A DNA stretch of 64,000 nt, taken from assembly GCF_004136635.1 (NCBI RefSeq), contig NZ_NOIU01000001.1, positions 682,001-746,000 of the forward strand, written 5' to 3'. The translations under genes were made by a program, and so were the position numbers. The notes under the pieces are model-generated. The model made no database searches, was not told the origin of the DNA, and was given only the letters and a program-made list of their open reading frames with translations. Source of the stretch: Rothia halotolerans. Its GTDB lineage: Bacteria; Actinomycetota; Actinomycetes; Actinomycetales; Micrococcaceae. This document shows positions 4,890 through 17,759 of the stretch, piece by piece. Each line of letters begins with the position of its first letter. Position 1 is the first letter of the stretch.

Positions 4890-6416
4890 TCATCCCCGCC
4901 CCGGAGGCCCGAGCACCTCCCGCAGCACCCCGCGGAGCCGCGTCAGCCCCCGCACCAGCCCGGCCTCGCTCAGCCCGCCGAAGCCGACGACGACGCCCGC
5001 CTGCGGCCACCCGTCCCCGGCCTCCCCGGCCGCGCGCCGCCCGCGGCTCCAGTACTCGCCGAGCGCCGCCACCGCGATCCCGGCGCGCCCGAGCGCCTCC
5101 AGCACCCTCGCCTCGTCCGCCGGGCCGGGCATCCGCAGGACCGCGTGCAGGCCGCCGTCCATGGGCAGCACCTCCACGCCGGCGGGCAGCAGGGCGGCGT
5201 CGAGGGTCCGGGCCAGCAGGTCGCGGCGTCGGCGGTAGTCCCGCCGCATCCGGGCGGTGTGGCGGCGGAAGCCCCCGGAGCGCATGTAGTCGGCCACGGC
5301 GTCCTGGACCACCGCGGAGACCGGGGCGCCGGCGTCGCGCCGCAGCCGCAGGACCTCACCCCTCAGCCATCCCGGCAGCAGCACGAACCCCAGCCCCAGG
5401 CCCGGCGTCAGCGTCTTGGCGAAGGAGCCGAGCGTCACCACCCGCCCGTGCGCGGCCGCCTCCCGGGAGTCGAGGGCCGCGAGGGCGGGCAGCGGGTCGC
5501 CGACGTACCTGAGCTCGGAGTCGTAGTCGTCCTCCACCAGCAGCGCGTCGTGCTCCTCGGCCCAGCGGAGCAGCTCCAGGCGGCGGGAGACCGGCATCGA
5601 GGTGCCCAGCGGGTACTGGTGGGAGGGCGTGAGGAGCACGACGTCGGGCCGTCCGGCCCCGCGCGGCAGGCCCGCCGGATCGAGCCCCTGCGCGTCCAGC
5701 GGCACCGGCACCACGGTGTGCCCCAGGGCCTGGGGGACCCGGTGCAGCGAGGGGTATCCGGGGTCCTCGACCGCAACGGTGAGGGGCCCCGAGGAGGGCG
5801 GGCCCAGGACGGTCAGCAGCAGCCGCAGGCCGTCACGGGCGCCCGCGGTGACCACCAGGTCGCCCGGGGAGACGACCACCGAGCGCATGAGCCGCAGGTA
5901 CTCGGCCAGCTCGCGCCGCAGCTCCTCGGAGCCCTCCGCCCCGTAGCCGAGGCCGGGGTGCGCCGCCGCCGAGCGCCAGGCCGAGCGCCACGCGGTGTTG
6001 GCGAGCGAGGAGATGTCCGGGGTGCCCGGGCGCAGGTCCACGAGCGGGACTGCGGAGGCTGGCGGGGCCGGGCGGGAGGCGGAGGCCGCGGGGCCGCCGG
6101 GACCGTCCGGGGACGACGTCGTCCCTCGACGCCCCGAGTCCGTCACCCCCGGCGGCAGGTCGGGGGTGACCCGCGTGCTGCCCAGGTCCGAGACGAGGTA
6201 CCCCTCCCCCGCGAGCTGGTCGTAAGCCGTGGTCACCGTGCCCCGGGAGATGCCCAGGCGCTCCGCGAGCCCCCGCGTCGAGGGGACCGGGTCGCCGGGG
6301 CGCAGCGCGCCCGTGGTGACCAGGCGGCGGATCTGCTCGACGATCTGCCCGGGGATGGGCCCGGCCGAGCGGTCCACGTGGACCGGTATCTCGGCGTCGG
6401 CGGGGTAGCGGGGCAT
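4890..6416 (-). CDS. pdxR: MocR/PdxR-type PLP-responsive regulator (GntR HTH + aminotransferase-like domain)
   Basis: The protein has 508 residues. Residues 15-80 form a GntR-type winged helix ([14 protein letters not shown]...[21 protein letters not shown]). A linker follows, and residues from about 130 form a fold-type I aminotransferase domain. The PLP-binding lysine is in SFAKTLTPG (Lys334), and [11 protein letters not shown] supplies the cofactor-ring aspartate. MocR regulators called PdxR activate pdxST when PLP is low and repress themselves. Divergence from pdxS with about 95 bp between starts strongly supports that role. A TAGACT -10 box at 6424-6429 (minus strand) lies only six bases from the ATG and there is no Shine-Dalgarno sequence, so the transcript is probably leaderless. 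Confidence 0.92.
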
Positions 6417-6423
6417 GGGACGA

Positions 6424-6509
6424 GTCTAGGACGCCATTCATGACTGGACCAAAAATCTATATCGATTCTGGATCTTTGAATAGGCCACCCGTCCGGGCCA
6501 GGATGGACC
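6424..6509. promoter_or_regulatory. pdxR-pdxS divergent control region with TGGAYC repeats
   Basis: Three direct repeats are visible: TGGACC at 6445-6450, TGGATC at 6469-6474 and TGGACC at 6504-6509. The first overlaps the likely -35 of pdxR (TTGGTC on the minus strand, 18 nt from TAGACT). MocR regulators usually bind direct repeats, so these are candidate PdxR boxes for autorepression and pdxST activation. The box assignment is inference; the repeats themselves are visible. Confidence 0.5.
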
Positions 6510-6511
6510 CC

Positions 6512-7429
6512 ATGACTGAAACCCTCACCTCAGACCGGACCCTCACCGGCTCCCCCCTCGTCAAGCGCGGCCTCGCGGACATGCTGAAGGGCGGCGTCAT
6601 CATGGACGTCGTCACGCCCGAGCAGGCGCGCATCGCCGAGGACGCGGGCGCCGTCGCCGTCATGGCGCTGGAGCGCGTGCCCGCCGACATCCGCGCGCAG
6701 GGCGGCGTCGCCCGCATGTCCGACCCGGACCTGATCGACGGGATCGTCGAGGCCGTCTCCATCCCGGTGATGGCCAAGGCCCGCATCGGCCACTTCGTGG
6801 AGGCCCAGGTGCTGCAGGCCCTCAAGGTTGACTACATCGACGAGTCCGAGGTCCTCTCCCCCGCCGACTACGTCAACCACATCGACAAGCAGAAGTTCAC
6901 CGTGCCCTTCGTCTGCGGCGCGACCAACCTGGGCGAGGCCCTGCGCCGCATCGCCGAGGGCGCGGCGATGATCCGCTCCAAGGGCGAGGCCGGGACCGGC
7001 GACGTCTCCGAGGCGACCAAGCACATCCGCACCATCCGCGGCGAGATCGCGCAGATCCAGGCGGCCTACGCCGCCGACCCCGACTCCCTGTACGTGAAGG
7101 CGAAGGAGCTCGCCGCGCCGTACGACATCGTGCTCGAGGTGGCCCGCACCGGGAAGCTGCCGGTGGTGCTGTTCACCGCGGGCGGCGTCGCGACCCCGGC
7201 GGACGCGGCGATGATGATGCAGCTCGGAGCCGACGGCGTCTTCGTCGGCTCCGGCATCTTCAAGTCCGGCAACCCGTCCCAGCGCGCGGCCGCGATCGTC
7301 AAGGCCACCGCCTACTACGACGATCCGGCCGCCGTCGCCGACGCCTCCCGCGGACTGGGCGAGGCCATGGTCGGGATCAACGTGGGCGACCTGCCCGCCC
7401 CGCACCGCCTGTCCGAGCGCGGCTGGTGA
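6512..7429 (+). CDS. pdxS: Pyridoxal 5'-phosphate synthase, synthase subunit PdxS
   Basis: The 305-residue protein belongs to the highly conserved PdxS/Pdx1 family. [21 protein letters not shown] at the N-terminus, MAKARIGHF with a catalytic lysine, [22 protein letters not shown] and the phosphate-binding [14 protein letters not shown] are all present. The enzyme is a (beta/alpha)8 barrel dodecamer that builds PLP from ribose 5-phosphate, glyceraldehyde 3-phosphate and ammonia delivered by PdxT. ATG 6512 matches the family start; an in-frame ATG at 6440 would add 24 residues that run through the promoter repeats. pdxT follows after four bases, so the two subunits are co-translated. Confidence 0.97.
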
Positions 7430-7433
7430 GCGC

Positions 7434-8015
7434 TTGACCCCGCCGACCGTGGGCGTGCTCGGCCTCCAGGGAGGAGTCGCCGAGCACGTCCGGCTGCTGG
7501 AGTCGCTGGGCGCCGGGACGCGCCTGGTCAAGCGGCCGGAAGATCTCACGGGACTCGACGCGCTGGTGCTGCCCGGCGGCGAGTCCTCCACGATCGACCG
7601 GCTGACCCGGCTCTTCGGCCTCCGGGAGCCGCTCCTCGAGGCGATCGGGAGCGGGCTGCCGGTGCTGGGGACCTGCGCGGGGCTCATCCTGCTCGCCGCC
7701 GAGATCGAGGACCCCGCGCCGGGCCAGCGCTCGCTCGGCGTGCTCGACGTCGCCGTGGCCCGCAACGCCTTCGGCTCTCAGGTCGCCTCGGCCGAGGCGA
7801 CCCTGGCCTGGGGCGGGGAGGAGGCCGACGCCGTCCGGGCCGCGTTCATCCGCGCGCCGGCGGTGACCCGCGTGGGTCACGGCGTCGAGGTCCTGGCGCG
7901 CCACGAGGAGCGGGTGGTCGCGGTGCGCTCCGGCTCGACGCTGGGCATCAGCTTCCACCCGGAGCTCACCGGGGAGCCCTCGGTCCACGCGGAGCTGCTC
8001 GGGATGGTCGGGTAG
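7434..8015 (+). CDS. pdxT: PLP synthase glutaminase subunit PdxT
   Basis: The 193-residue class I glutamine amidotransferase supplies ammonia to PdxS. It has the N-terminal VGVLGLQGGVAEH, the PGGESSTI oxyanion segment, nucleophile Cys81 in GTCAGLI and the catalytic His-Glu in SFHPEL near the C-terminus. The length is typical (190-200). The start is a TTG at 7434, because the only earlier in-frame option runs into a stop and the next GTG would remove the first strand. It is coupled to pdxS by a four-base gap, and a strong hairpin follows at 8020-8052. Confidence 0.95.
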   Translation: MTPPTVGVLGLQGGVAEHVRLLESLGAGTRLVKRPEDLTGLDALVLPGGESSTIDRLTRLFGLREPLLEAIGSGLPVLGTCAGLILLAAEIEDPAPGQRSLGVLDVAVARNAFGSQVASAEATLAWGGEEADAVRAAFIRAPAVTRVGHGVEVLARHEERVVAVRSGSTLGISFHPELTGEPSVHAELLGMVG

Positions 8016-8052: not shown

Positions 8053-8365
8053 CGCCGCCGGGAGGTCTGAGCCGGCCCGCCGGGTGCCCCGCTCCGGGCG
8101 CCGCGGGCTGGATCCCGGCAGCGCCCTCGCTGTCGCCATACGTTTCCCACCAGGGATTTCTTCGTATTCCCTCGAGGGCATTCCCCTTTCTGATCCCCCG
8201 CTTCCCCTTCCCTTTCCGGAATGGCGCCAGAGCCTTTCCGAAATCGTCCGCCTCCTGTCCCAGGGTGATTTCTCGATTCCCCAGGGCCCCTTCTCTAGAC
8301 TGCGCATCAACCCATACAGCACGTATGGAGCTTTCGACAACGCCGTGGAGATGCAGGGGAACATC
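8053..8365 (+). other. Gene-free leader upstream of the PKS operon
   Basis: About 310 bases with clearly lower GC than the flanks and runs such as TTTCTCGATTCCCC. It presumably contains the promoter of the ketosynthase operon. A weak -10-like TAGACT is visible near 8296, but I cannot assign a -35. The frame is open upstream of the ketosynthase, but ATG 8366 with AGGGGA five bases ahead is the only well-supported start. Confidence 0.4.
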
Positions 8366-9739
8366 ATGGGGAAGACGACGGAGATCGCCGTGACGAGCGT
8401 GGCCGCCCGGTGCGCGGGCGCCAGCAGCGCAGACGAGTACTGGAACCTCCTGGAGAGCGCGCAGCCGCAGTTCCGCGGGGTGCCGCCGTCACGATGGCGG
8501 GAACGGCCCGCCGCCTCGCGTCCGGGCCGCGGGAACCTCAGCTACTCGCACGTCATGGCACCTGTCCGGGACCCCTACGCCCTCGACGCCCGACACCGCA
8601 GGATCCCGCGTGCCAGGGCCCTGCGCATGGACCCTCAGCAGCGCATGGCCCTCGGGCTGACGGAGGAGCTGCTGGCAGGCTCTCGCATCGACGTCTCCGC
8701 CGCCACGGAGGGCCGGATCTCCACCGTCATCGGCGTCAGCTCCACCGACTACCGCTCGGTGAGCTCGGCCGCGGTGGTCGCGGACATGCTGACAGATGGG
8801 TCGCTGGGCCGGAGCTCCGCCGGCTTCCGGGAGGCCCTGCGCGGCGTCTCCGAGAGGTCCGTCAGGGATCTCAGCGCGCACACCATGCCGGGCGTGCTGG
8901 CGAACATGGTCGCCGCCGTCGTCCAGTCCTCCTTCGACCTGAGGGGCTCCGCATACACCATGGACGCAGCCTGCGCCTCCGGGCTCATCGCGATCGACAC
9001 GGCATGCGGGCTGCTGACGAGCGGACGCGCCGACGCGTGCATCGCGGGCGGCGTGTACGTGGCGCTGACCCCCGAGGCCCACATCGCGTTCTCGGCGGTG
9101 GGTGCGCTCTCCCCCACGGGGGTGTGCAGGCCTTTCACCTCGATGGCGGACGGCTTCGTCATCGGCGACGGCGGGGCCCTGGTCCTGCTGCGTCGGCTGG
9201 AGGACGCCCGGCGGGACGGCGACCGGATCTGGGCGGTGGTGGAGGCCCGGGGGAGCTCCAGCGACGGCCGCGCCCCCGGCATCATGACGCCCACCGCGGC
9301 GGGGCAGAGAGCCGCCGTCGAAGAGGCGCTCGCCTCGTCTGGCCAGCGCGTCCTCGAGGTGGATGCCGTCGAGGGGCACGGGACGGGCACGGAGGTGGGG
9401 GACCGGACCGAGATCGAGACCCTGCGCCGGGTCGTGGACCCGAGCGCGCAGGTCCTCCTGGGATCCTGCAAGGCCGTCATCGGCCATACGATGGCCGCCT
9501 CCGGCGCCCTGTCCTTCGTCAAGGCGGCGCAGGCGCTGGCCCGGGGGACCTGGCCGCCGCAGCCCGGCGTGCCCGGGGGCCGGTGGAGCCCGCAGCTGGT
9601 CGAGAGCCCTCTCCTCCCCGCCTGCCGGGGGGCCGTGCGGCATCGCCCGATCCGCCGGGCGGCGGTGAACTCCTTCGGGTTCGGGGGCACCAACAGCCAC
9701 CTCGTCCTGAGGGGGCCGGAGGTGGAGCCCCGTGGCTGA
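8366..9739 (+). CDS. Stand-alone type I PKS ketosynthase (KS)
   Basis: The 457-residue protein is a complete modular-type KS ending exactly at the conserved NSFGFGGTNSHLVL. MDPQQRMAL, active-site Cys203 in DAACASG, His338 in EGHGTGT and Lys369/His374 in CKAVIGHTMAASG are all present, so decarboxylative condensation should work. It lacks the post-KS linker, AT and ACP, which are encoded by the next gene; the two overlap by 8 bp (GTGGCTGA). ATG 8366 is preceded by AGGGGA. Family knowledge: such KS enzymes extend an acyl starter with malonyl-ACP. The starter unit and its loading route are not visible. I infer one split PKS module that works once or iteratively. Confidence 0.9.
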   Translation: MGKTTEIAVTSVAARCAGASSADEYWNLLESAQPQFRGVPPSRWRERPAASRPGRGNLSYSHVMAPVRDPYALDARHRRIPRARALRMDPQQRMALGLTEELLAGSRIDVSAATEGRISTVIGVSSTDYRSVSSAAVVADMLTDGSLGRSSAGFREALRGVSERSVRDLSAHTMPGVLANMVAAVVQSSFDLRGSAYTMDAACASGLIAIDTACGLLTSGRADACIAGGVYVALTPEAHIAFSAVGALSPTGVCRPFTSMADGFVIGDGGALVLLRRLEDARRDGDRIWAVVEARGSSSDGRAPGIMTPTAAGQRAAVEEALASSGQRVLEVDAVEGHGTGTEVGDRTEIETLRRVVDPSAQVLLGSCKAVIGHTMAASGALSFVKAAQALARGTWPPQPGVPGGRWSPQLVESPLLPACRGAVRHRPIRRAAVNSFGFGGTNSHLVLRGPEVEPRG

Positions 9740-12700
9740 GCACCTCCCCTTCCTCCTCTCGGCCGGCGGGCCCGAGGAGCTGCGTCGGCTGGCCGCCCGT
9801 CATCTCTCCGCCCTCGAGGATCCGGCCGGGGCCGTCGAGGCAGCGGGCTCTCCGTCAGCGGTCCTCCGGGACCTGGCGACCGCCCTCTCCCTCGCGCCGC
9901 CTCAGGAGTACCGGGCGGCCCTCATCGCCTCGTCCTTCGGCGAGCTCCGGGAGCGGCTCGCGGCGATCCGGGACGCGGAGGGAACGATGCCCCGGACTCT
10001 CGGTCCTTCCGGCATCGGCATGGCCCGAGCCGACCACGACTCCTCCCCGCTCCTCCTCTTCCCGGGCCAGGGCAGCCAGCGGCCGGGGGAGAACGCCTGG
10101 CTCGCCCGGGGATCGGAGGCGTACGCGGAGCACGTGCGGGAGCTCGAGGGCCGCTTCGGCGACGACGCCCTCGGCACGCGCCTCTCGGAGGCCTGGACCG
10201 CATCGGAAGACAATCGCAGAAGTCTGGAGACCGGGTGCCGGGAGACCTCGATCGCGCAGCCCCTCCTGTCCGTCACGGCCCTTGCCATGGTCCGCACCCT
10301 GGAGGAGGCCGGGGTACCGGCCGACGCCGTCCTCGGCCACAGCGTCGGCGAGTTCGGCGCGCTCCGGGCCGCCGGCGTCCTCGGCGAGACGGAGATTCTG
10401 GACCTCGTCAGGCGACGGGTCGAATGCACGCGCTCCCTCGCCCCTGGCTCCTCGATGCTCGCGGTGCGCAACGGGACGGAGGGACTCCCCGCCTCCGCGG
10501 AGCCGCCGGAGGGCCTCTTCCTCGCCTGCGACAACGACCCTTCCCAGACAGTCCTCGGCGGCCCGGCGGCCGCAGTCGGGGAGGCGGCCCGCGAGCTGAC
10601 GCGGCGCGGCGTCGCCTGCACGCCTCTGCGTACCTCCTCCGCCTTCCACACCCCCGTGATGGCGGAGGCGGACAGGGCCTTCGGCGCCGCGCTCGCCTCG
10701 CTCGACGCGGCAGACCTGCCGACGCCGGAGGGCATCCGCCTCTACTCCTCGATCTCCGGGTCCCGGGTGCGCAGCCGGCGGGAGGCGTTGGACCTGCTGA
10801 GCCGCCAGCTCTCGACGACGGTCCGCTTCCGCGAAGCCTGCCTGGCCGCCCAGGAGGCTTCGCCGGACTTCCTCGTGCAGGTCAGCGGAGGAACCTCCCT
10901 GATCGAGATGTATCGCCGCACCAATCCCGGCTTCACGGGTCCACACGCGGGATTCGGCGGCTCGGATCCGCAGGCCGCCGAGCATGCGAGAGCTGTGGCG
11001 ACGCTCTTCCTGTCGGTCAGGAGCTTCCGGCCTCACGTCCTCATCGGCGGTCTGGGAGTCGCCTCCCGGGCACCCCACGCCGCCTCGACGGCGGAGAGCG
11101 TGCTCCTCGCCCGCGCCTCGGCCGACGCCTCTGCGCCGGCACCGGCACACCGTCCGCATCGTCCCGCAGAATCGGAGAGCGAACCCATGACGCACCGACC
11201 GCAGCCGAATCGACCGTCCTCCCGGCAGGCCGCCCCGGCGACCGGCGCCGAGGCCGCGGGGAGAAGCAGCCTCCCCGAGCACGGCGCCCCTCCGGAAGGA
11301 GCAGCTTCCGCCGGATCGACCGCCCTGGCGCTCACCGCGGCGCTCATGCACGACCAGATGAGGACTCTGCGCTGGATCCTCGGCGCAGAGAAGGAGGCCA
11401 CGCCGGCCCTGCCCCACGACGCCAGGCGCCGTGACGACGCGTCACATCCGGCACCTGACGGCGGGAGGAACACCGGGCACGGGGGCCGGGAACGCGAGGA
11501 TGCGGTGAACAGCGACTCGGTGCCCGACGCCGGGGCGATGCGGACTCCGCCCGATGCACCGGTGCCACCCACCCCTGACTCGGCCTCCGCCCCGGGCTCG
11601 GACCCCGAGGACCTCGGGGAGACCATCCGCCGGATCGTCGCGGAAGTCGGCGGATATGCGCCCGAGCAGATCTTCCCCGCCGACGAACTCGGCGCCGACC
11701 TCGGCCTGGACTCCCTCATGCTCACCGGCATCCTGGCAACACTCGCGGAACGCTTCCCCGGCTGGCGCCCCACGAGCCTGGATCCATCCCGCATCACTAC
11801 GGTGCAGGACCTCGTCAAGGTGGTCGGCGAGGGGAAGGACGGTAGCGCGACGACGCCGGATCCACACAGCGCGGCGCCGGAGCCGGCCGCCGGAACGGCG
11901 TCGCCGGACCCCACCGAAGCCCCGGCCGAGGCCGGCGCACCAGGGAAAGACACCGCCGCTTCCCGCGACGACGCTGTCGCGGTCGATCCCCGACCTCTGT
12001 GGCAGACCGAGGAGGTCAGCCGGACCGGGAGGCGACTGGAGCAGGCCGCTCGGGGCACCGCGCCGCTTCCCTACTACCTGGAGCACGAGGGCGTCGCCGA
12101 CGCCACCACCAGCATCGGCGGTGAGGAGTACATCAGCTTCGGCTCGTACAACTACCTCGGGCTGACCGGCCACCCCAGCGTGGTACGGGCCGCTCAGGAA
12201 GCGGTCTCCCGGTATGGGACCTCGTGCTCCGCGGCGCGCATCCTCTCCGGGAACCGTCCGCTGCACACGCAGCTCGAGACGTCGATCTCCCGCCTCGTCG
12301 GCACCGAGGACGCCGCGGTCCTGGTCAGCGGCCACGGGACCAACATGAGCGTGATCCCGCACCTCTACGGCCCCCAGGACATCGTCTTCCACGATGCCCT
12401 GGCGCATGACAGCATCCTCCAGGGGATCAGGGCCTCGGGCGCCGCCCGGCACTCCTTCCCCCACAACCGGACGGATCTCCTCGAGAGGGCCCTGCGGAGC
12501 CGCCGCCGCTCCTTCCGACGGGCCCTGATCGTCACCGAGGGCATCTTCAGCATGGACGGCGATGTCGCCGACCTGCCGGAGCTGGTCCGCCTCGCGAAGG
12601 AGCACGGGGCGCACCTCATGGTCGACGAGGCCCACAGCATCGGCGTGCTGGGGGCCCGCGGAGGCGGGATCTGCGAGGAGCTCGGGGTGGACCCGCACGA

Positions 12701-13289
12701 CGTCGACCTCCTCATGGGCACCCTGTCCAAGAGCCTGGCGAGCTGCGGCGGCTACATCGCGGGCCATTCCGCGCTCGTGCAGCACCTGAGGTTCTCCCTC
12801 TCGGGATTGGTCTTCAGCGCCGCGATCACCCCGCCGAACGCCGCCTCCGCCCTGGCCGCGCTCGAGATGATCGAACAGGAGCCCGGCCGCCTCCGCACCC
12901 TGCGGGAGAACTCCCGGCACTTCCTCGACGGCGCCCGGGCCCGCGGGCTGGAGGTGGGCGATGCGATCGGGGCGGCCGTCGTGCCCGTCATCATCGGCGA
13001 TTCCGGGCGTACGATCGAGGTCTCCCGAGGCCTCCACGACGCCGGCATCAGCGTCAACCCGATCGTCTTCCCCGCCGTGGCGGAGAACCTCTCCCGCCTG
13101 CGGTTCTTCATCACCCAGGACCACACGCGGGAGCAGCTCGACGCCGCGCTCGACGCAACGGCGGATCTCCTGTCCCGTCCCGGGGGCGGGGCCCCCGCCC
13201 CCGGGACGGAGCTTCGGCCGTCCACGGCGAGCCCGACGCCGGGCCTCCCCGAGGGAGAGCACAGCGCAGCCTGCGGAGCCGGACGATGA
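9732..13289 (+). CDS. AT-ACP-alpha-oxoamine synthase fusion (PKS with PLP-dependent release domain)
   Basis: The 1185-residue protein contains: residues 1-100, a KS-AT linker (PFLLSAGGPEELRRLAARHL); about 105-430, an acyltransferase with GQGSQ (112-116), Ser204 in GHSVGE and SAFH (303-306), close to the malonyl-type HAFH; 430-615, disordered Pro/Ala/Ser linker; 620-700, an acyl carrier domain with phosphopantetheine Ser661 in LGLDSLM; 755-1150, a fold-type I alpha-oxoamine synthase with VDEAHSIG and PLP-lysine Lys1000 in TLSKS. AOS enzymes condense acyl thioesters with an amino acid and lose CO2, as in SxtA, PigH, Fum8 and serine palmitoyltransferase. The predicted product is an alpha-amino ketone. 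The start GTG overlaps the KS stop, and the downstream SDR overlaps by 4 bp. The amino acid used is unknown. Confidence 0.88.
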   Translation: MAEHLPFLLSAGGPEELRRLAARHLSALEDPAGAVEAAGSPSAVLRDLATALSLAPPQEYRAALIASSFGELRERLAAIRDAEGTMPRTLGPSGIGMARADHDSSPLLLFPGQGSQRPGENAWLARGSEAYAEHVRELEGRFGDDALGTRLSEAWTASEDNRRSLETGCRETSIAQPLLSVTALAMVRTLEEAGVPADAVLGHSVGEFGALRAAGVLGETEILDLVRRRVECTRSLAPGSSMLAVRNGTEGLPASAEPPEGLFLACDNDPSQTVLGGPAAAVGEAARELTRRGVACTPLRTSSAFHTPVMAEADRAFGAALASLDAADLPTPEGIRLYSSISGSRVRSRREALDLLSRQLSTTVRFREACLAAQEASPDFLVQVSGGTSLIEMYRRTNPGFTGPHAGFGGSDPQAAEHARAVATLFLSVRSFRPHVLIGGLGVASRAPHAASTAESVLLARASADASAPAPAHRPHRPAESESEPMTHRPQPNRPSSRQAAPATGAEAAGRSSLPEHGAPPEGAASAGSTALALTAALMHDQMRTLRWILGAEKEATPALPHDARRRDDASHPAPDGGRNTGHGGREREDAVNSDSVPDAGAMRTPPDAPVPPTPDSASAPGSDPEDLGETIRRIVAEVGGYAPEQIFPADELGADLGLDSLMLTGILATLAERFPGWRPTSLDPSRITTVQDLVKVVGEGKDGSATTPDPHSAAPEPAAGTASPDPTEAPAEAGAPGKDTAASRDDAVAVDPRPLWQTEEVSRTGRRLEQAARGTAPLPYYLEHEGVADATTSIGGEEYISFGSYNYLGLTGHPSVVRAAQEAVSRYGTSCSAARILSGNRPLHTQLETSISRLVGTEDAAVLVSGHGTNMSVIPHLYGPQDIVFHDALAHDSILQGIRASGAARHSFPHNRTDLLERALRSRRRSFRRALIVTEGIFSMDGDVADLPELVRLAKEHGAHLMVDEAHSIGVLGARGGGICEELGVDPHDVDLLMGTLSKSLASCGGYIAGHSALVQHLRFSLSGLVFSAAITPPNAASALAALEMIEQEPGRLRTLRENSRHFLDGARARGLEVGDAIGAAVVPVIIGDSGRTIEVSRGLHDAGISVNPIVFPAVAENLSRLRFFITQDHTREQLDAALDATADLLSRPGGGAPAPGTELRPSTASPTPGLPEGEHSAACGAGR

Positions 13290-14233
13290 AGGCGGGCAGC
13301 GCGGAGATCGCGGTGCTGGGCGTCTCCGGCGCCATCGGCCAGCTGGCGGCTCGGGCCGCCCTGGAGCACGGGCACGCCGTCCGCGCCTGCGCCCGGCATC
13401 CGCGGGACGTCCCGGGCGTCCCGCATCCCCTCGCCGACTACTCCCGCCGAGAGGTGCGCACGGCCATCCGAGGCTGCTCCGCCGTCATCGCGACGGTGGG
13501 CCTGCCCTACCGCTCCCGGCTCTGGCTCGCCGACTGGGCCCCGATGGTCCGCGAGATCCTCGCGGCCTGCGCCGACGAGGGCATTCCCCTGACCCTGCTG
13601 GACAACCTGTACGTCTACGGCGACGCCGGGAACCCGCTCCACGAGGACTCCCCTCTCACGCCGTGCAGCGCCAAGGGCCGGGCCCGGCTCGCCGGCTGGG
13701 AGGCCGTCCGGGAGGCACTGGACCGGGGCCAGGACGTCCTGGTCGCCCGCGCCTCCGACTTCCTCGGACCCCGCGCGGAGGTCTGCCTCCTGCCGTGGAG
13801 CACACTCGCGGCTGCGGCCGAGCACGGTGGGAGGGCGCTCACCTGGATCGGCGACCCCGAAGCGCAGCACTCCTTCTCCTTCACCGAGGAGGTCGCCGCG
13901 GCGCTGGTGGAGCTGGCGACGGGCGAGGCGGTCCGCCGGGAGCCCGGCGTCGTCCACCTGCCGACGCTGCACGCCTTCTCCGCGCGGGAGCTCGCCCGGC
14001 GACTGGGCGAGCGCAGGGGCCGCCCGCTGCCCCTCCGTGTCCTGAGGAGGCCCGCCGTCGCCGCCGCCGCGCTCCTCAGCCGCCGGGCCGCGGAGCAGCG
14101 GGAGATGATGTACCAGGTCGAGCGCGACTTCATCGTCGACGACGAGCGCATCCGGAGCCAGGGGTGGTCAGCGCCGAAGATGACCCTGGAGGACCTCGTG
14201 GAGCGCCTGGCGCACCGGCCGGGCCTCCCATGA
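13286..14233 (+). CDS. Extended SDR (NAD-dependent epimerase/dehydratase family), likely tailoring reductase of the PKS-AOS operon
   Basis: The 315-residue protein overlaps the PKS-AOS gene by ATGA (13286-13289). The Rossmann start IAVLGVSGAIGQLAARAALE gives a GxxGxxG-type nucleotide site; DNLYVYGD and ARASDFLGPRA resemble the extended SDR core, and the C-terminal half is a substrate domain. The canonical YxxxK catalytic pair is not clear: the Tyr is near LYVYGD and a lysine lies in PCSAKGRA. Extended SDRs reduce or epimerise sugars and ketones; the bacterial ceramide pathway also uses an epimerase-like reductase after serine palmitoyltransferase. From context I infer reduction of the alpha-amino ketone to an amino alcohol. 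Confidence 0.75.
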   Translation: MKAGSAEIAVLGVSGAIGQLAARAALEHGHAVRACARHPRDVPGVPHPLADYSRREVRTAIRGCSAVIATVGLPYRSRLWLADWAPMVREILAACADEGIPLTLLDNLYVYGDAGNPLHEDSPLTPCSAKGRARLAGWEAVREALDRGQDVLVARASDFLGPRAEVCLLPWSTLAAAAEHGGRALTWIGDPEAQHSFSFTEEVAAALVELATGEAVRREPGVVHLPTLHAFSARELARRLGERRGRPLPLRVLRRPAVAAAALLSRRAAEQREMMYQVERDFIVDDERIRSQGWSAPKMTLEDLVERLAHRPGLP

Positions 14234-14552: not shown

Positions 14553-14996
14553 ATGAACATCCCCTCCAACCCTCAGCAGCGACGCTTCGGCGGGAGACTC
14601 GTAACCGCAGTGACGTTGACGCTGGCCGCTATCGCCATCACGCCCACCCTGTCCTATGCCTCACCCACGTCAATCGACGATCCCACCGTCGGCAGCGCTG
14701 AGGAGATCCGCGTAGCAGAGGAAGCTTCTTCCGGAATCCCGGAAACCGAGCCCTTCTGGCTCTCCGCCGGTCGGAAAATCGCATTTCCGCGCGAAGGTGG
14801 TCACTGGGAATACGGCTTCTGGAACGCGAATATCCGCTCGTACTACACGGTGAACCGGTGCCATGGTTCCTCCGTCTCTAAGAACGGACACATCGCGCGC
14901 AGCATGGATACCCCCGCGGGTAAACGCAGTGTCGCCGAGAGATGGGCGCTCCAGAACCCGTGGGACGTTGATCGGTACTACTACCGCGTTTGCTGA
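14553..14996 (+). CDS. Lactococcin 972 family bacteriocin precursor
   Basis: The 147-residue pre-protein has a basic N-terminus, a Sec signal peptide (VTAVTLTLAAIAITPTLSYA, cleavage near residue 36), an acidic pro-region to about residue 80 and then the family core. The core has GGHWEYGFW, spaced aromatic residues, HGSSVSKNGHIARSMDTPAGKRSVAERWA and a C-terminal YYYRVC. The GG.W.YG, SxY, HGSSV and paired C-terminal tyrosines match lactococcin 972, which binds lipid II and blocks septum formation. Unlike the prototype it carries two cysteines, Cys103 and Cys147, able to form a disulfide. Its codons are clearly AT-richer than the neighbours. The downstream membrane protein and ATPase complete the usual cassette. 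Confidence 0.85.
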   Translation: MNIPSNPQQRRFGGRLVTAVTLTLAAIAITPTLSYASPTSIDDPTVGSAEEIRVAEEASSGIPETEPFWLSAGRKIAFPREGGHWEYGFWNANIRSYYTVNRCHGSSVSKNGHIARSMDTPAGKRSVAERWALQNPWDVDRYYYRVC

Positions 14997-15102
14997 CGAT
15001 TCCCAGGGGGGGCTCGGCCGCTCGCATCAGGCGAGCGACCGGAGTCCCCCGCCATGTTCTTCTCCAGTCCGCCGGACCATCGCACAGCTCAGGAGGCATC
15101 GA

Positions 15103-17055
15103 GTGGGCTCCGTTCATCATCGGGTCGTCGCCGGGACCGGCGTCGTCGTCTTCGCGCTCCTGGCCGTCCTGTCCGCGGTCTTCCTCGACCTGCAGGACCG
15201 GGCCGTTCCGCGGACCGCGGGCGCGAGCGCGGCGTTCGACCTCGACTTCGTCGGTTCCGCGCTCGACGAGGCGACGGCTCTCGACGCCCTCAGCCGGGCC
15301 AGCGACGACCTCGGGCTGGGCTTGGTCCGCTTCGCCGGGAACGTGCGGAACAGCGCGGGCTCGGACCAGGTGCTCGTCGAGCTGAGCGCCTCACGCTCGC
15401 TCCCAGACCGACTCCCCCGGTTCGGGGCCGTTCCCGACGCAGAAGTCAGCGGCTCGGAGACCCTGGAGAACTCCTCCCCACAGGGCCGGTACCTCGTCAC
15501 CGGCGAACACCCGGATCTGCCCGCCTTCACCGCATGGCTGGAGGAGAACAGGGTGGGAGCGGCACGCATCCCCTCGGCGGCCGCCTCCGTGCCGGGCCTG
15601 CTCGCGGCCCAGCCCGCCTTCACGGCCTGCCTCGTCGCCGCGCTGCTCCTGCTGGTGTGCCTCGCCCTGTACTGGTGGGCCGTCCGTGCCCGGCGTCGCG
15701 CCCTCCTGGTGCTGGCCGGCATGGCGCCCCGCAGGATCATGGGGCGGGATCTGGCGGGGCTCGCGCTGCCGCTGACGGGGTCCGCGGGGCTCGTGGCCGC
15801 TGCGGCAACCGGTTTCGCCGCCACGCGCGGAGGCGTCTTCGTCCTCCCGATGGTCCTGCTTCTGGGAACCCTCGAGGCGCTGATGGTCGCGGGAGCGGTC
15901 GGGACCTTCGCCCTGCTCTCGGCCGTCGCGTGGCCCTCCTCGGCCGTGCTGTCCCGGTTGCGCCACGCCGCGCAGGGACACCGCGTGACCGCGACGGGGC
16001 TGATGGCGCTGTCGTTCCTCCTGGTGGTCGCGACGGTCCCCCCGACGGCTGCGGTCTGGCGCGACGCGGAGGCCACCGCCCGGGAGCAGGCGCAGTGGCG
16101 GCTGCTCACCGATCAGGTGAGTCTCGCGCTGATGACGGGCGCGACCGAGGAGGAGTTCGACGTCGTCAGCGAGCCCTTGGGGCGGTTGTCCCGGAATGCG
16201 GATCGACGAGGGGCAGCGGCGTTCTCCTACGCGTGGGAAGCGGCCCCGTCCTCCGCGGACGGTGACGGGCCCTCCCCGAACCGTTCGCCCCTGGCCCTCG
16301 TGAGCCGGGCGTGGTTGGAGCGCACCGACGTCGATGATGCCGACCTCGCTCCCGCGACCCGTGAGAGCCTCCCCGTCGAGGCGCATGAATTCCTCGATGA
16401 GCAACTGCCGCTCTGGACACGTAGCGCTCCGGAGAGTCTCGAGCTTTACGTTCACCGCGGGGAAGCCGGACCGCCCCTGATCGAGGGCGGCACCGGCAGA
16501 ATGATCTTCCCCCGGCAGCCCATCCTGGTGGTCGTGCCGGACTTGAACTCTTTCAATGACGATTCCCTGGGAGCGGCCATCTCCTCGTCCAACATCGTCT
16601 TCACCGGCCTGGCCGCGACGGAGCGGGAGGTCCGGGAGGCGGGGCTGGGCGACGCCGTCCGGGTGCAGCTCGTGGCCGAGGACGGTCTCCTCCGAGCCCA
16701 GCTCTCCTCCTACCTCGCCCTGATCACCGCGCTCTCGCTGGTCGCCCTGACCGCGGCGCTGCTCGTCGCGTCCGCGGTGGGGGCCGCCATCGCCGCGATC
16801 GTGTCCCTGCCGCGCGACCGGGTCCTGGGACTGTCCGGCGAGTCCCGGTGGAGGATCGTGGCGCCCCGGCTCGTTCCGCAGTGGGCGGCGGGCACCGTGC
16901 TGACGGGCGTCGTCTACGTCGTCATGGGCCGCAGCGGGGTCGAGGAGCGCGGATGGGTCTGGGCCGGCGCCGCGCTGGGGCTCGTCATCGCGAGCGCCAG
17001 CCACCTCCTGGCGACCCGGTGGGCGTTCCGCCAGGCGGCCGAACGCGCCCTGTGA
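15103..17055 (+). CDS. Bacteriocin-associated integral membrane protein (putative immunity/permease, 7-TM type)
   Basis: The 650-residue protein starts at GTG 15103 with AGGAGG at 15091-15096. One TM helix lies near residues 10-30, then an extracellular domain of about 130 residues, three or four helices (about 165-370), a second extracellular domain (about 385-550) and three C-terminal helices. This is the architecture of the lactococcin-972-associated membrane protein (bact_immun_7tm), which resembles FtsX/MacB-like permeases. It pairs with the ABC ATPase 62 bp downstream. It is thought to give immunity or export, but neither is proven for the family. A longer in-frame start inside the bacteriocin gene was rejected because it has no ribosome site and no signal-like sequence. 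Confidence 0.82.
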   Translation: MGSVHHRVVAGTGVVVFALLAVLSAVFLDLQDRAVPRTAGASAAFDLDFVGSALDEATALDALSRASDDLGLGLVRFAGNVRNSAGSDQVLVELSASRSLPDRLPRFGAVPDAEVSGSETLENSSPQGRYLVTGEHPDLPAFTAWLEENRVGAARIPSAAASVPGLLAAQPAFTACLVAALLLLVCLALYWWAVRARRRALLVLAGMAPRRIMGRDLAGLALPLTGSAGLVAAAATGFAATRGGVFVLPMVLLLGTLEALMVAGAVGTFALLSAVAWPSSAVLSRLRHAAQGHRVTATGLMALSFLLVVATVPPTAAVWRDAEATAREQAQWRLLTDQVSLALMTGATEEEFDVVSEPLGRLSRNADRRGAAAFSYAWEAAPSSADGDGPSPNRSPLALVSRAWLERTDVDDADLAPATRESLPVEAHEFLDEQLPLWTRSAPESLELYVHRGEAGPPLIEGGTGRMIFPRQPILVVVPDLNSFNDDSLGAAISSSNIVFTGLAATEREVREAGLGDAVRVQLVAEDGLLRAQLSSYLALITALSLVALTAALLVASAVGAAIAAIVSLPRDRVLGLSGESRWRIVAPRLVPQWAAGTVLTGVVYVVMGRSGVEERGWVWAGAALGLVIASASHLLATRWAFRQAAERAL

Positions 17056-17117
17056 ACCCTGGAATCGAACGCCGGCCCGGGCCCCGGCGTCGACACCGTA
17101 CCGACTGGAGGAACGAC

Positions 17118-17759
17118 ATGATCGAAGCGCACGATCTCAGCATCCGCATCGGCCGACGACTCGTCGTCGAATCCGCGAGCCTCGCCTGCCTCGCCGGGGA
17201 GCTCACGGCCCTCACCGGGCCGAGCGGCTGCGGGAAGACGACCCTGCTCCACGGCCTGGGGCTGCTCCTGCGACCGGTCGACGGGCGCGTCGCGGTGGAT
17301 GGGGAGGACGCGACGAGGTGGAGCGAGCGACGGCGTCGCGCCTTCTGGCGCGAGCGGGCGGCCTTCATCCAGCAGGACTACGGCGTGATCGACGACGCCA
17401 GCCTCGCTTTCAACGTCGCGCTGCGGACCGACCTGTTCGGCCGGCCCGCGCGCGGCCCCCTCCCCGCGGTCGGGGAGGCGCTGCGCCGCGTGGACCTGCG
17501 ACGGCCGGAGTCGGAGACGGCGGCTCACCTGAGCGGAGGTGAGAAACAGCGTCTGGCCGCGGCCCGGGCGCTATACCGGGAGGCCGACGTCGTCTTCGCC
17601 GACGAGCCCACTGCCTCCCTGGACCAGGGCAACCGGGATCGTGTGACGGAGCTGCTCGAGGAGCTGGCGGAGGAGGGGACCGCGGTGATCATCGCGACCC
17701 ACGACGAGCGGCTGGTGCGCAGATGCTCGCGGGTCCACGAGATGGCGCGACCGATGTGA
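17118..17759 (+). CDS. ABC transporter ATPase of the lactococcin-972-type cassette
   Basis: The 213-residue ATPase has Walker A GPSGCGKTT (about residues 35-43), Q-loop FIQQDYGVI, signature LSGGEKQRLAAARAL, Walker B VVFADEPTASLD and an H-loop ATHDERLV. It belongs to the MacB/LolD-like group that serves FtsX-type permeases, and the family member beside lactococcin 972 is of this kind. ATG 17118 is preceded by GGAGG (17107-17111). It should energise the membrane protein encoded just upstream, in export or immunity. It is shorter than importer ATPases, as expected for this group. Confidence 0.9.
   Translation: MIEAHDLSIRIGRRLVVESASLACLAGELTALTGPSGCGKTTLLHGLGLLLRPVDGRVAVDGEDATRWSERRRRAFWRERAAFIQQDYGVIDDASLAFNVALRTDLFGRPARGPLPAVGEALRRVDLRRPESETAAHLSGGEKQRLAAARALYREADVVFADEPTASLDQGNRDRVTELLEELAEEGTAVIIATHDERLVRRCSRVHEMARPM

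Follow-up and report, generated by a model that had tools for sequence, protein, structure and literature searches.

A ketosynthase, AT-ACP-AOS, and SDR operon of Rothia halotolerans that may work like the second half of RedL

Several described biosynthetic routes join a polyketide synthase (PKS) to a pyridoxal 5′-phosphate (PLP)-dependent α-oxoamine synthase (AOS). In undecylprodiginine biosynthesis of Streptomyces, the ketosynthase (KS) of RedL makes a β-ketomyristoyl thioester, which is released by PLP-mediated condensation with glycine; the product cyclizes to 4-keto-2-undecylpyrroline, from which RedK forms 2-undecylpyrrole, as set out in PMC11188435. The same text has the AOS of PigH/RedN, in the 4-methoxy-2,2′-bipyrrole-5-carbaldehyde (MBC) branch of the prodigiosins, acting on a β-ketoacyl thioester with serine. 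In Pseudomonas, an iterative type I PKS (SgaA) feeds a separate, serine-preferring AOS (SgaB, a demonstrated serine palmitoyltransferase, SPT), and SgaC, a short-chain dehydrogenase/reductase (SDR) of the same cluster, is a proposed ketoreductase, according to PMC12134224. Here we describe an operon in a stretch of 64,000 nucleotides from Rothia halotolerans (assembly GCF_004136635.1, contig NZ_NOIU01000001.1, positions 682,001 to 746,000; hereafter the window), which encodes a KS, a fusion of an acyltransferase (AT), an acyl carrier protein (ACP), and an AOS, and an SDR-like protein. We give about an even chance to the reading that this operon is a minimal non-reducing, single-extension PKS with AOS release, which operates as the latter half of RedL does and leads to an alkyl-ketopyrroline or alkylpyrrole.

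The three open reading frames lie where an earlier note on this DNA had described three overlapping genes, and they form one operon with overlaps of 8 and 4 bases. Its proteins and domains are as follows.
8366..9739, + strand: stand-alone type I KS (P0001; Pfam), 457 amino acids, with Cys203, His338, and His374
9732..13289, + strand: AT-ACP-AOS fusion (P0002; Pfam), 1185 amino acids, GTG start
10056..10916, + strand: AT domain of the fusion, amino acids 109–395 (Acyl_transf_1, 4.3e-31), with GHSVGE (Ser204) and SAFH (303)
11619..11819, + strand: ACP domain, amino acids 630–696 (PP-binding, 1.1e-7, Pfam), with Ser661
12069..13169, + strand: PLP-dependent AOS domain, approximately amino acids 780–1146, with Lys1000 and HDS at 892–894
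13286..14233, + strand: extended-SDR-like protein (P0003), 315 amino acids, from an unusual SDR group with a KGR motif and no YxxxK (Epimerase, 5e-9, Pfam)

The KS protein matches the N- and C-terminal ketoacyl-synt families at 2.7e-55 and 8.3e-29, and Aminotran_1_2 covers amino acids 799–1142 of the fusion (5e-45). Every catalytic residue named in the earlier note is confirmed at its position (KS: Cys203, His338, and His374; AT: Ser204 and SAFH; ACP: Ser661; AOS: Lys1000), and Pfam at an E-value of 0.001 detected no ketoreductase (KR), dehydratase (DH), enoylreductase (ER), thioesterase, or nonribosomal peptide synthetase domain in the three proteins. The domain content supports the proposal of one non-reducing extension module with AOS release. 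The start of the KS is ambiguous (ATG at 8366, or else the in-frame ATG at 8351 or GTG at 8345). The KS protein stops where a fused relative (P0004) continues into the KS–AT linker, and the segment ahead of the AT in the AT-ACP-AOS protein resembles this linker. A ribosome-binding-site-like sequence, GGAGGTGGAG, lies at 9718–9727, 4 bases ahead of the GTG at 9732; because of this sequence, we regard the KS/AT boundary as a true gene split and a sequencing frameshift as unlikely, although the relatives are fused there. The G+C content per kilobase is 0.65 to 0.78 across the window and 0.70 to 0.76 across the operon; because the operon resembles its surroundings, with no foreign base composition seen, the composition does not indicate recent import. 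The operon is real and probably encodes a working variant of an AOS-terminated PKS.

The order KS-AT-ACP-AOS without reducing domains is that of the C-terminal part of RedL. For the comparison, 12 AOS sequences were taken as RedL, and 10 of the clusters were mapped. RedL carries matches to an acyl-AMP ligase, KS, AT, the ACP range, and AOS; at locus L145, the acyl-AMP ligase, PKS, and AOS profiles follow in that order and RedH, at 1647.7 bits, exceeds its curated cut-off of 1350. Eleven of the 12 RedL genomes have a further AOS approximately 8 to 9 kb from RedL on one contig, which was taken as RedN. RedK is the next gene after RedL in seven of the 10 clusters and is fused C-terminally after the AOS in the other three (L144, L152, and L153), and the window likewise has its SDR directly downstream. 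The AOS of RedL is 44.8 to 50.0% identical to that of the window (nine sequences). RedL differs in having the acyl-AMP ligase in the same chain, and RedK in keeping YxxxK, whereas the window has no prodiginine genes and its KS and AT are on separate proteins.

The SgaA-SgaB-SgaC cluster likewise combines a type I PKS with a PLP-dependent AOS and an SDR (PMC12134224), but the AOS of the window is in cis with AT and ACP and has no reducing domain beside it; reducing domains in SgaA may be expected from its product. The sequence compared here was the AOS encoded by an SgaB-like gene in Pseudomonas strain TMW 2.1634. A presumed PKS gene of 7.5 kb, an AOS (48.9% identity), and an SDR also stand in a row in a Sinorhizobium capsule locus (L205), which we take to be RkpA-RkpG-RkpH; unlike in the window, this AOS is a separate gene with capsule genes close by. 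The AOSs of PigH and RedN, labeled from gene order, are 38 to 41% identical and fall in another, distant clade. The earlier note knew of no described pathway with exactly this gene set in such an organism, but the set has precedents: RedL and the RedK after it show this module order, with a loading part in addition, the Sga genes are a published PKS-AOS-SDR sphingolipid route (PMC12134224), and relatives with an adjoining SDR exist in a Streptomyces-like genus.

To place the AOS, we built a tree of 73 AOS domains; its designated outgroup was not separated from the rest by any single branch, and several of the sequences in outer positions are long. The window AOS falls within a clade of 50 PKS-associated AOSs (support 100/100), together with the SgaB-like, RkpG-like, and RedL sequences and single-module enzymes of actinobacteria. 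Outside it are BioF, KBL, two Bacteroidetes proteins presumed to be SPTs, and RedN with PigH. Within this clade, it belongs to an actinobacterial clade of 36 non-reducing KS-(AT)-ACP-AOS synthases (96/96), where its closest neighbors are L136 and an enzyme from a Streptomyces anthocyanicus plasmid (99/88); the window AOS itself has a long branch (1.13). In this family (L010, L066–L085, L124–L143, L157–L160, and L198), the 35 sequences compared are 49.9 to 57.2% identical to the window AOS; the family members differ in that the KS is fused to the rest and in having loading, MMPL, and phosphopantetheinyl transferase (PPTase) neighbors, none of which is found among the window genes. Mean identity to the window AOS was 54.9% for the KS-AT-ACP-AOS enzymes (11 sequences), 53.6% for KS-ACP-AOS (13), 51.7% for the Nocardia-like enzymes (11), 48.2% for RedL (nine), 41.5% for the SPT-like proteins (two), 39.1% for RedN (eight), 33.1% for KBL, and 30.7% for BioF. 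A Massilia AOS gene, the sole locus of a scan of named genomes, is far from the window AOS in the tree.

An HDS motif at the PLP-stacking histidine of the AOS was found, among the 73 sequences, only in RedL (9/9), the actinobacterial KS-(AT)-ACP-AOS family (34/35), and the window. HNS (as in the SgaB-like AOS), HAS, or HMS stands there in the SgaB-like, RkpG-like, SPT-like, RedN, and PigH sequences, and KBL, which uses glycine, shows HAS. The motif common to RedL and the window may be, at most, a hint of glycine use.

We propose the following route. An acyl starter, probably fatty acyl, would load Cys203 of the KS from a donor that is not in the window. The AT was aligned with the AT domains of the relatives and RedL, and its motif, under the rule linking such motifs to substrate, suggests a malonyl-type enzyme, which would charge Ser661 of the ACP with malonate. 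The KS would then form a β-ketoacyl-ACP, presumably in a single round, and the AOS would decarboxylate a putative amino acid partner on PLP-Lys1000 and release R-CO-CH2-CO-CH(R′)-NH2. This amino-dione would probably close to a 2-alkyl-4-keto-pyrroline (3-pyrrolinone), on which the SDR, RedK-like by position, may act to give an alkylpyrrole or hydroxypyrroline. For a module without reducing activity, the simplest outcome would be an amino-dione cyclizing to a 4-keto-pyrroline, unlike in the sphingoid route of SgaA-SgaB-SgaC. The earlier note had predicted a sphingoid-type 2-amino-ketone reduced by the SDR; both parts now look weak, since without reducing domains the AOS would receive a β-ketoacyl-ACP and make a 1-amino-2,4-dione, and the SDR has no YxxxK. 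Taken as a whole, that interpretation as an amino ketone or amino alcohol lipid operon is partly supported. The operon is best read through RedL and not through sphingolipid synthesis, and its product is a prediction.

The relatives of the window synthase were sought at increasing taxonomic distance. In the other 34 genomes of the window's genus, no match spanning AT-ACP-AOS was found at 1e-30; AOS-only matches occur in six of them (29 to 35% identity). At the level of the order (99 genomes), a further six pass 1e-60. Of the three that were read, one is an AOS next to a PKS with KR-ACP at its end, one is an AOS standing alone, and one is an AOS joined to a different domain; the remaining three have frames of 396 to 478 amino acids, too short for AT-ACP-AOS. 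Six others also pass 1e-80 among 296 genomes of the phylum, with a long frame (1631 amino acids) only in G361 and frames of 395 to 828 amino acids elsewhere; at L087, gene calling did not recover the AOS match. In the Nocardia-like genus of G361, 44 of 150 genomes pass 1e-95 with open frames of 1100 to 1769 amino acids. All 20 mapped loci of this genus (L066–L085) have the AT-type GHSxG, and all have an acyl-AMP ligase gene and an ACP gene directly upstream on the same strand, as called by Pfam and NCBIfam on L067 and by blastp identity to L067 in the others (58–87% and 66–87%, respectively). By this comparison, the two genes would be the loading part of RedL as separate genes. As a separate observation, L025 (1432–3918) has an AOS at the C-terminus of an 828-amino acid protein, the N-terminal part of which looks by eye like a GNAT-type acyltransferase.

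In the Streptomyces-like genus of G153, a score of 378 bits or more, higher than those of the 12 RedL sequences, is reached at 35 places, which are spread over 30 of 246 genomes. The 25 that were mapped comprise 10 KS-AT-ACP-AOS synthases (1508–1621 amino acids) and 15 shorter KS-ACP-AOS synthases (1112–1189 amino acids) read as AT-less, AT absence having been checked by Pfam on L124 only; GHSxG occurs in one of these 15 versus all 11 fused ones, including the S. anthocyanicus plasmid enzyme. An MMPL gene lies within two genes of KS-AT-ACP-AOS in 11 of 11 loci (10 in genomes and one on the plasmid; upstream on the same strand in nine), and a PPTase gene adjoins the synthase in six of the 11 (Pfam check on three); at L140–L143, L158, and L160, the MMPL transporter, KS-AT-ACP-AOS, and PPTase genes stand in a row. 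MMPL proteins export lipids. Our literature search found no paper on the KS-(AT)-ACP-AOS family, which is weak evidence since subscription literature was largely outside its scope. We tentatively suggest, as a possibility somewhat short of even, that actinobacteria hold a widespread, undescribed orphan family of non-reducing KS-(AT)-ACP-AOS synthases whose products are lipids of the alkyl-pyrroline or alkylpyrrole type with no relation to prodiginines, with fatty acyl-AMP ligase–ACP loading in the Nocardia-like and MMPL export in the Streptomyces-like members, and that the window holds a reduced form of it that has lost the loading part, carries the KS as a separate protein, and has an atypical KGR SDR in place of RedK. 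Another AOS system was seen on a plasmid of Streptomyces sp. NBC_00158 (L162; similar layout in L154, L155, and L156), annotated as a PKS, a DNA alkylation repair protein, a large SDR plus PLP enzyme, a histone deacetylase (HDAC)-like enzyme, a thioesterase, and an MFS exporter; that its product alkylates DNA is a guess.

The window SDR shares NLYxYG followed by KGxxR, without YxxxK, with 14 synthase-linked and five stand-alone copies, and it aligns with a RedK at 24.8% over 286 amino acids (pairwise E-value of 1.7e-7). Of the 15 mapped KS-ACP-AOS loci read as AT-less, all but L134 (14 loci) have an SDR of this KGR group adjoining the synthase. In those 14 genomes, the best match of the window SDR is the linked copy (109.8–135.9 bits), and its best match outside the KGR group, the window excepted, scores 97 bits; a KGR SDR is also present in three of 24 searched Streptomyces-like genomes without an AT-less locus (G625, G800, and G620). 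In the SDR tree, the window protein branches below the linked, the unlinked, and most background KGR SDRs jointly; the tree does not support it as an ortholog of RedK, nor of the AOS-linked Streptomyces-like SDR alone. A single-sequence structure model of the SDR (mean predicted local distance difference test score, 35.9) was not used. Only the place of its gene makes a reductase role plausible.

Several of our results weigh against a RedL-like route. The nine RedL sequences form their own clade (100/100), and the window AOS lies outside it, which rules out membership; its identity to the SgaB-like AOS (50.4%, one sequence) is about that to the best RedL (50.0%), and a count of alignment columns, biased by the diversity of the sets, gave 95 window residues in common with presumed serine users and 22 with RedL. 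In a KS tree of 52 sequences made by a quick method, from which the reducing-PKS loci L088, L012, and L205 were left out for lack of a KS match, the window KS joins the Streptomyces-like KS-AT-ACP-AOS sequences weakly (SH-aLRT 82) on a long branch (2.35), and the Nocardia-like KSs group with RedL and others, apart from it; because of this grouping, the KS and AOS histories are not in full agreement. Among the 55 genes called in the window, the part of the genome that was searched for them, none matched an acyl-AMP ligase, a free ACP, an MMPL protein, a PPTase, or a further PKS. The β-keto group could be reduced by trans-acting reductases of fatty acid synthase. As for the SDR, YNRSK is present in seven of seven separate RedK proteins and no YxxxK occurs anywhere in the window SDR; SDRs 70 to 87% identical to the L124 copy stand alone at five places (L193–L197), and the window SDR is not nearer RedK than other KGR SDRs are.

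Reduction in trans, or the use of a ready-made acyl-ACP, would allow a sphingoid-like amino alcohol lipid, formed by condensation with serine or alanine and reduction of the 2-amino-ketone by the SDR. The similarity of the window AOS to the SgaB-like AOS, SgaB being an SPT (PMC12134224), would fit this, as would the best matches of the AOS in the PDB, which are SPTs (1.5e-75). However, the acyl group must be reduced for a sphinganine chain to form, and the three proteins hold no KR, DH, or ER; the clade of the AOS is nearer the non-reducing actinobacterial enzymes; and HDS in place of HNS, HAS, or HMS, with an SDR lacking YxxxK, also argues against it, so that we consider a sphingoid product rather unlikely. 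Open-chain or otherwise cyclized amino-dione lipids, exported as such, with the SDR as an accessory binding or isomerizing protein and no pyrrole formed, would agree with the missing YxxxK and with the MMPL and PPTase genes beside the fused relatives, but the window has no MMPL match and 1-amino-2,4-diones cyclize readily; this outcome seems less probable again.

Loss of function, or retention for part of the activity only, might be suspected from the long branches of the KS (2.35) and AOS (1.13) and from the lack of a match over AT-ACP-AOS in the other 34 genomes searched in the genus, but three intact overlapping frames with ribosome-binding-site-like sequences, a full set of catalytic residues, and G+C like that of the surroundings make decay improbable. 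Finally, a common fold and strong profile scores might suggest a BioF, KBL, or canonical SPT of primary metabolism that merely stands beside PKS-like genes. The AOS falls below every NCBIfam cut-off concerned (bioF, 346.5 versus 426.45 bits; SPT, 326.8 versus 640; KBL, 296.4 versus 460 and 241.2 versus 493; ALAS, 227.5 versus 338.55), is apart from the KBL, BioF, and SPT-like sequences in the tree, and is fused to AT and ACP, and the genome holds another AOS gene of ordinary size (G000:C4:525495). The curated cut-offs and the tree together rule out such an identity, in agreement with the earlier note, and we give this explanation almost no weight.

The genes on the upstream side of the operon concern PLP supply.
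4890..6416, − strand: pdxR, MocR-type regulator of PLP synthesis, divergent neighbor (NCBIfam NF052282, 435.5 bits; cut-off, 320)
6440..8015, + strand: pdxS and pdxT, PLP synthase, directly upstream on the same strand as the operon (NCBIfam PdxS and PdxT equivalogs, above cut-off)
The position of PLP-supply genes beside a PLP-using AOS is an attractive link that may be due to chance. Directly downstream of the operon, positions 14553–17759 hold a lactococcin-972-type bacteriocin precursor (Pfam, above cut-off), a protein of 650 amino acids that falls in no Pfam family, and an ABC ATPase. Among NCBIfam models, the ATPase matches L_ocin_972_ABC best, at a score under the cut-off of that model.

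AOS-terminated PKSs stand where the metabolism of fatty acids, polyketides, and amino acids meets; their products are sphingolipids or pyrroles. The wider surprise of this analysis is the frequency of the single-module family in two actinobacterial genera. A compact family with lipid-loading or MMPL neighbors would be a good target in the search for amino-dione, pyrroline, and pyrrole lipids, and the three-gene version in the window is small enough for reconstitution in vitro, which may relate the amino acid used and the number of extensions to a sphingolipid or pyrrole outcome.

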